Shown here: positions 29,902-30,383 of the stretch, one piece after another | Layout of the letters: each line of letters opens with the position of its first letter | Position numbering within the stretch: position 1 is the stretch's first letter | Assembly: GCA_002863125.1 (NCBI GenBank) | Contig: PKEB01000014.1 | Span: forward strand, 1-64,000 | Reading direction: 5' to 3' | DNA: 64,000 bases | DNA from: Flavobacteriales bacterium | GTDB taxonomy: Bacteria; Bacteroidota; Bacteroidia; Flavobacteriales_D; Sanyastnellaceae | Made by a program: the position numbers and the translations under genes | Notes under the pieces: model-generated | The model's database searches: none | Seen by the model: only the letters and a program-made list of their open reading frames with translations | What the model was told of the DNA's origin: nothing

Positions 29902-30345
29902 TCAAAAATCAGGCCGCTCGAATCCGAAACCCTTCGCCGCTTCCACCACTTCTTCAGACCATGGCGCCGGCCTTCCCTCCTTGTGGTTGTACGACACCAA
30001 GACGGTCTTCGCTTGGGCAACCAACACCCGCTCCCCTTGCCAATGCTTATACACTTCATAAGCGGCCGTCATGCTCTTTGTCCCAATGTGCTCAATCCAG
30101 GTGACAATGCGCACATCGTCGTTGAAGAGAATGGGCGCGCGGTAATCAATTTCATGCCGAGCTACCACCATCCCTGCGGCGTTCCAATCCCATTTTTTGC
30201 CGAGAAGCGGCTCGAAAAAGGCAATTCGGCTCTGCTCGAAGTAATTGAAGTAGGCAGCATTGTTCACGATGCCAGCAGCATCAATGTCAACGAACCGGAT
30301 CTCTGGGGTATACACTTGCGACGTAGGGAGGTCAAATTCTTGCAT
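29902..30345 (-). CDS. Acyl-CoA thioesterase, 4HBT/YbgC-like hotdog family
   Basis: 147 residues, a single hotdog domain. The catalytic region is VDIDAAGIVNNAAYFNYFEQSR (split here as VDIDAAGIVNNA and AYFNYFEQSR), with the acidic residue and Asn placed as in 4-hydroxybenzoyl-CoA thioesterase and YbgC. Such enzymes hydrolyse acyl-CoA thioesters in the cytoplasm; in other bacteria YbgC is linked to the Tol system, but no tol gene is near. The ATG at 30345 has an exact TACTTTTG element four bases upstream. It is divergent from a small membrane-protein gene, and the two share a near-palindromic promoter. Confidence 0.85.
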   Translation of the reverse strand: MQEFDLPTSQVYTPEIRFVDIDAAGIVNNAAYFNYFEQSRIAFFEPLLGKKWDWNAAGMVVARHEIDYRAPILFNDDVRIVTWIEHIGTKSMTAAYEVYKHWQGERVLVAQAKTVLVSYNHKEGRPAPWSEEVVEAAKGFGFERPDF

Positions 30346-30383
30346 GGTGCAAAAGTACCGGCTCGTACCTTTGGTTCATGCAA
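30340..30383. promoter_or_regulatory. 44-bp near-palindromic divergent promoter
   Basis: Sixteen of 22 base pairs across the centre (between 30361 and 30362) are complementary. Each half carries TTGCATG and a -7 element: TACTTTTG on the minus strand at 30357-30350 and TACCTTTG on the plus strand at 30366-30373. The start codons at 30345 and 30378 are mirror images, and each -33-like TTG lies 23 bases from its -7 element, next to the other gene's start codon. Confidence 0.6.

Follow-up and report, generated by a model that had tools for sequence, protein, structure and literature searches.

In the window, a stretch of 64,000 nucleotides from contig PKEB01000014.1 of a marine Flavobacteriales bacterium (genome of 2.27 Mb in 35 contigs), a gene for a 4HBT-fold acyl-CoA thioesterase-like protein and a gene for a small protein diverge from an intergenic gap of 32 bases (coordinates in Table 1). 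The thioesterase matches PF13279 (E 1.2e-22) and, under that family's curated cut-off, TIGR00051 (E 6e-16), and the small protein, hydrophobic by eye, has no family match in Pfam or NCBIfam. On the plus strand the gap reads TACCTTTG, then GTTC, then the ATG of the small-protein gene, and on the minus strand TACTTTTG, then CACC, then the ATG of the thioesterase gene. Both octamers are perfect copies of TAnnTTTG, which is described as the -7 element used by the primary sigma factor of Bacteroidota (PMC6847099), and a sigma-A -7 box is found on both strands; the two boxes are separate, lie 8 nt apart and flank the inner octamer CCGGCTCG. On both sides the box is positioned for a start at the start codon, with 4 nt between box and ATG, and transcription in F. 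johnsoniae is reported to start 4-5 nt past the -7 box (PMC6847099); transcription of both genes is thus predicted to begin on the A of the ATG, at starts 33 bp apart, which would leave no space for untranslated leaders. An alternative leadered promoter was rejected because the 250 nt upstream of each gene in the window contain no further TAnnTT[TC]G.

Table 1. Genes and promoter features of the divergent locus (positions in the window).
Feature	Position	Strand	Remark
4HBT-fold acyl-CoA thioesterase-like gene, 147 aa	29902..30345	-	Predicted leaderless
TTG, claimed -33 of plus promoter	30340..30342	+	At -38 to -36; complement of thioesterase CAA second codon
Thioesterase ATG	30343..30345	-	4 nt past G of -7 box; predicted transcription start at A (30345)
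-7 box TACTTTTG of thioesterase promoter	30350..30357 (read 30357 down to 30350)	-	Perfect TAnnTTTG
Inner spacer CCGGCTCG	30358..30365		-20 to -13 region common to both promoters
-7 box TACCTTTG of membrane-protein promoter	30366..30373	+	Perfect TAnnTTTG
Small-protein ATG	30378..30380	+	4 nt past -7 box; predicted transcription start at A (30378)
Small-protein gene, 111 aa	30378..30713	+	Predicted leaderless
TTG, claimed -33 of minus promoter	30381..30383	-	At -38 to -36; complement of small-protein CAA second codon

Leaderless mRNAs are a minority in the Bacteroidota that have been studied, which counts against a leaderless reading here: F. psychrophilum is given a share of 5.5% (PMC9723704), in B. 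thetaiotaomicron 5' UTRs shorter than 10 nt make up about 3.7% (PMC7366714), and in F. johnsoniae leaders longer than 10 nt are carried by 87% of the predicted transcripts (PMC6847099). Leaderless-type promoters were counted in 422 kb of the window's genome, made up of the window and 20 further stretches, several of them picked for holding opposite-box pattern matches, in which a simple script based on coding scores called 332 genes. An in-frame ATG close to a gene start is preceded by TAnnTTTG at a distance of exactly 4 nt in 21 cases; each of the other distances between 0 and 12 gives 0-3 cases, and a scrambled box at 4 nt yields 0. At the first ATG of a gene, TAnnTTTG is found 4 nt upstream in 18 genes and TAnnTTCG in 2, with 6 more genes having TAnnTTCG at 6-8 nt (4 of these at 7 nt). 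Genome-wide, TANNTTTGNNNNATG has 68 matches, versus 12 for the reversed pattern. The base preceding the ATG is C in 18 of the 21 leaderless promoters; G occupies -16 in 13 of them and, with this C, may form an extended element of the lineage.

Conservation was assessed in the 22 best thioesterase loci, 20 from the genus, counting that of the window, and 2 from another genus of the family. Two of the 22 genus genomes (G008 and G016) have no thioesterase match, and one locus (L008), where the contig breaks off at the start codon, was excluded, leaving 21 assessable loci. Thioesterase identity is 96%, 93%, 89% and 85% in four relatives (all MAGs), and a tblastn match to the small protein adjoins the thioesterase at 20 of the 21 loci (weakest E 0.005, in a small database). 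Both boxes and both ATGs are present at 21/21 loci with a gap of 29-33 nt, the thioesterase start codon and its -7 box occurring together at every one, which agrees with the proposal in the initial annotation that one compact element holds a pair of divergent promoters, each with a predicted leaderless start. Both boxes are perfect at 12 loci, and at the other 9 one or both of them depart from the consensus by a single base; with a search expression in which TA was obligatory and one-base departures were permitted elsewhere in the box, each side retains at least 5 of 6 box bases at 21/21 loci. The distance from box to ATG is 4 nt on 39 of the 42 sides and 3-5 nt overall. The relaxed expression has 1 match on the plus strand and 2 on the minus strand of the 422 kb, against 0.2 expected per strand from mononucleotide shuffles.

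The imperfect boxes bear on the alternative that one side alone is leaderless or active and that the box facing it matches by chance or has decayed. At 9 of the 21 loci (L010-L013, L015, L016 and L018-L020) TTCG replaces TTTG on the small-protein side, a one-base departure that also counts against a model of two working promoters; L011 and L012 have TTTA on the thioesterase side as well, and the ratio of 2 to 18 genes given above for TAnnTTCG and TAnnTTTG at 4 nt fits a one-sided element. Against this stand at least 5 of 6 box bases and the 3-5 nt spacing, which are kept on both sides throughout, and the two perfect boxes of the window's genome, and a single working side is very unlikely; two functional promoters remain the preferred reading. 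TAnnTTCG may be an accepted variant of the box or reflect another sigma-factor specificity. Among eight more distant thioesterase loci (L023-L030), inspected by eye and kept outside the counts, the arrangement was seen in L023 alone, and in L025 and L029 a box was seen only on the thioesterase side.

Among close relatives, silent sites have diverged much faster than the gap: in L004, L005 and L007, 30-31 of its 32 positions are identical, versus 38-40% of four-fold sites, and the non-box positions are identical at 18-19 of 20. The octamer CCGGCTCG, which lies outside the known -7 box, is unchanged in these three loci and matches at 7/8 positions in L009. Such conservation beyond the boxes is not demanded by a simple two-promoter model and speaks against it; the octamer is perhaps kept because both promoters use it as their upstream region, or because it binds a protein. 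Six more distant 32-nt gaps (L009, L010, L015, L016, L017 and L019) retain 11-12 of 12 box positions and 7-12 of the 20 others.

The 44-mer at positions 30340-30383, which comprises the gap and six bases on either side, had been described as a near-palindrome with 16 of 22 mirrored positions paired and with TTGCATG in each half. Both features can be read directly from the sequence, and the 44-mer is the only one among the 63,957 of the window to reach 16 pairs, for which 20 first-order Markov simulations gave a mean of 0.15 per window. By count, the 16 pairs comprise 6 invariant -7 bases, 3 from the ATGs, 3 from the CAA second codons, 2 usual leaderless-promoter bases (C at -10 and C at -1) and 2 central pairs, and the inner octamer is itself a poor palindrome (4/8 positions). 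For comparison, 19 further leaderless promoters from the window's genome supplied equivalent 22-nt halves (171 pairs), giving a mean identity of 13.7/22 (sd 1.8) and at least 16 in 27 pairs. The symmetry is thus above chance because there are two promoters, whose halves follow one consensus, TAnnTTTG-N3-C-ATG; a near-palindrome is what two back-to-back copies of one promoter give, and the symmetry is not a feature of its own. The initial annotation had proposed comparing related genomes for conserved mirror symmetry, and this is found at 17 of the 21 loci (12-17 pairs) and is weaker at L006, L010, L020 and L022, which drop to 8-11 pairs with boxes and starts retained, owing to indels in L006, L020 and L022 and to substitutions in L010. 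Symmetry as a selected feature was rejected on the promoter-pair comparison and on this drop. Both outer arms (TTG and CAA) occur at 6/21 loci, and the TTGCATG arms are a trait shared by close relatives whose two genes both open with ATG CAA.

A palindrome between divergent genes could also be an operator that overlaps the promoters and binds a dimeric regulator of both genes, since divergent genes around a central inverted repeat are the classic layout for one, as described for lysG/lysE (PMC5648196), and the near-identity of the non-box positions in L004, L005 and L007 is consistent with it. We consider an operator unlikely given that both symmetric outer arms persist at so few loci, that indels break the register in L006, L020 and L022 while the boxes are retained, that the symmetry falls inside the range of other promoter pairs, and that the four window genes scanned against Pfam include one HU-type DNA-binding protein and no specific regulator.

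For the reading as two overlapping promoters, the initial annotation had also taken the outer TTGs as -33 elements, each 23 nt from the TA of its box. The two distances are indeed both 23 nt, as read directly from the sequence. The role is not clearly supported, with the TTGs at -38 to -36 and retained at that exact place at 6/21 loci on the plus side and 5/21 on the minus side. A TTG anywhere from -40 to -29 is present at 8/21 and 7/21 loci, respectively, and TTTG within the same interval at 0/21 and 6/21; in the window, the minus-side TTG sits within a longer stretch of T that closes with TTTG. The 21 leaderless promoters of the window's genome lack a visible -33 motif, and RNA-seq in F. johnsoniae is reported to show the -33 element far less evidently (PMC6847099). 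A result described for F. columnare, where TTTG at -33 is non-essential yet required for full activity (PMC2483708), counts in favour of a -33 role. On balance, both outer TTGs are more likely incidental.

Back-to-back boxes recur beyond this locus. The pattern CAAANNTA-N0-30-TANNTTTG-NNNN-ATG is found in 22/22 genus genomes with 171 matches (two-sided sites counted twice), compared with 2 matches for the reversed pattern and 9 matches in 8/22 genomes for a scrambled box. Among the 68 leaderless-type sites of the window's genome, 11 sites at 8 places, 3 of these places being two-sided, face an opposite box no more than 30 nt away; equal base frequencies would predict about 0.5 (68 x 31 / 4096). 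Apart from the thioesterase locus, the two-sided sites in this genome are one at a peptide deformylase gene (L084:215-270), whose partner side would run off the contig, and one between the genes for SmpB and adenosine deaminase (L085:2552-2604). Across the family, with inner gaps of 0-12, the pattern occurs in 62/114 genomes and 14/21 genera, with control matches in 13/114 genomes. In the phylum 40/118 genomes match versus 19/118 with control matches, which leaves a modest excess outside the family. Eighty-two of the family matches, selected by hand, covering gaps 0-12 and clustered by same length and 80% identity of short cores, a procedure that may merge unrelated sites, gave 48 clusters in which all inner gaps from 0 to 12 are used with no sharp preference, and a preferred inner spacing was rejected.

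The fixed 8-nt geometry, allowing at most 1 mismatch, is found in 16/114 family genomes and was rejected as a separate class. Fourteen of these genomes belong to the genus: 12 have the match at the thioesterase locus by coordinates, G004 has it there by its match letters, on a separate contig from the G004 thioesterase match, and the remaining match is in G008, one of the genomes without a thioesterase match. The two outside the genus (G134 and G137) both belong to one other genus, with one mismatch each. Boxes that share one TA, with both starts leaderless, occur in 2/299 genomes sampled from the order, making shared-box bidirectional promoters of a Bacteroidota type rare. In L023, from another genus of the family, the boxes seemingly share one TA (CGAAGATACCTTTG) between two ATGs when inspected by eye; with 5 nt on one side this site is missed by the shared-TA pattern, and its neighbouring gene matches the small protein weakly (E 0.94).

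From the boxes, their spacing, their conservation and their recurrence, we consider it quite probable that the gap is made of two complete, fully overlapping, opposite-facing Bacteroidota sigma-A promoters that give rise to two leaderless mRNAs. Polymerase would recognize TAnnTTTG in either direction and begin transcription on the A of either ATG (30345 or 30378), and both predicted mRNAs would be translated without a leader. The overlap of the two polymerase sites follows from geometry, and each promoter's upstream contact region would be the start region of the other; a polymerase bound at one site should therefore block the other, and mutual exclusion between the two directions, putative as it is, is plausible. 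A further step would be a mutually exclusive switch, in which the overlap was selected so that the two genes alternate and the symmetry and 23-nt spacings were selected for that purpose. The complete overlap and the compact gap at all 21 assessable loci are compatible with a switch, but comparable pairs in the family use every inner gap within the searched range of 0 to 12 nt with no marked preference, the outer TTGs are not kept, and no functional opposition between the thioesterase and this small protein is apparent. Moreover, five bidirectional promoters described in E. coli did not compete at basal activity, which was too low, and competition arose once one direction was activated (PMC12825309). 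Selection for a switch thus seems quite unlikely, and two overlapping promoters with leaderless starts remain the preferred account.

Several known systems resemble this element in part. Bidirectional promoters of E. coli and other bacteria likewise have pseudo-symmetric DNA on which polymerase binds either way to make two divergent RNAs, and are described as having a common -10 element with starts separated by 7-25 bp, most often 18 (PMC12825309, PMC10268837). Here, in contrast, each promoter has its own -7 box and the RNAs are predicted to begin at the ATG. Under the definition given for E. coli and Salmonella (PMC10268837), the 33-bp start spacing lies outside 7-25 bp and two boxes stand in place of one shared near-symmetric -10 element; the element resembles bidirectional promoters in expected effect, fails their definition and is best classed as a form of overlapping divergent promoters. 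Bacteroidota sigma-ABfr promoters, described with TAnnTTTG at -7 and TTTG at -33 (PMC6847099, PMC9723704, PMC2483708, PMC7366714), share the perfect -7 boxes and the 4 nt to the predicted start, whereas here two of them face opposite ways in one footprint and no convincing -33 is found. The EcoRV restriction-modification system also has two divergent promoters with overlapping polymerase sites, but its C transcript is not leaderless and the C protein regulates (PMC5333194). The lysG/lysE pair of Mycobacterium tuberculosis has overlapping divergent promoters, an inverted repeat and one leaderless transcript, but differs in its 108 bp gap, its LysR-type regulator and the origin of the leaderless transcript from a second lysE promoter (PMC5648196). 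An open-access literature search with limited terms gave, among the entries listed and judged by titles and abstract openings, no recognisable paper on overlapping leaderless divergent promoters in Bacteroidota.

The locus illustrates how compact the control region of two divergent genes can become if both are leaderless, and its mirror symmetry, which adds nothing past two promoters, calls for caution with palindromes between divergent genes. TAnnTTTG-N4-ATG on both strands provides a sequence-only handle for finding such pairs in Bacteroidota, and the pairs would be natural tests for competition between two polymerases that share one footprint. It is possible, though somewhat doubtful, that back-to-back leaderless sigma-A promoters are a standing class in this Flavobacteriales family, perhaps more widely in the phylum, whose footprint couples initiation without a regulator. 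If so, intergenic regions in these bacteria would be reduced to a pair of overlapping promoters with inner gaps of differing size and, as seen by eye in L023, even a shared TA; one polymerase footprint over both genes would couple their initiation, and hence their expression noise, with no regulator involved.
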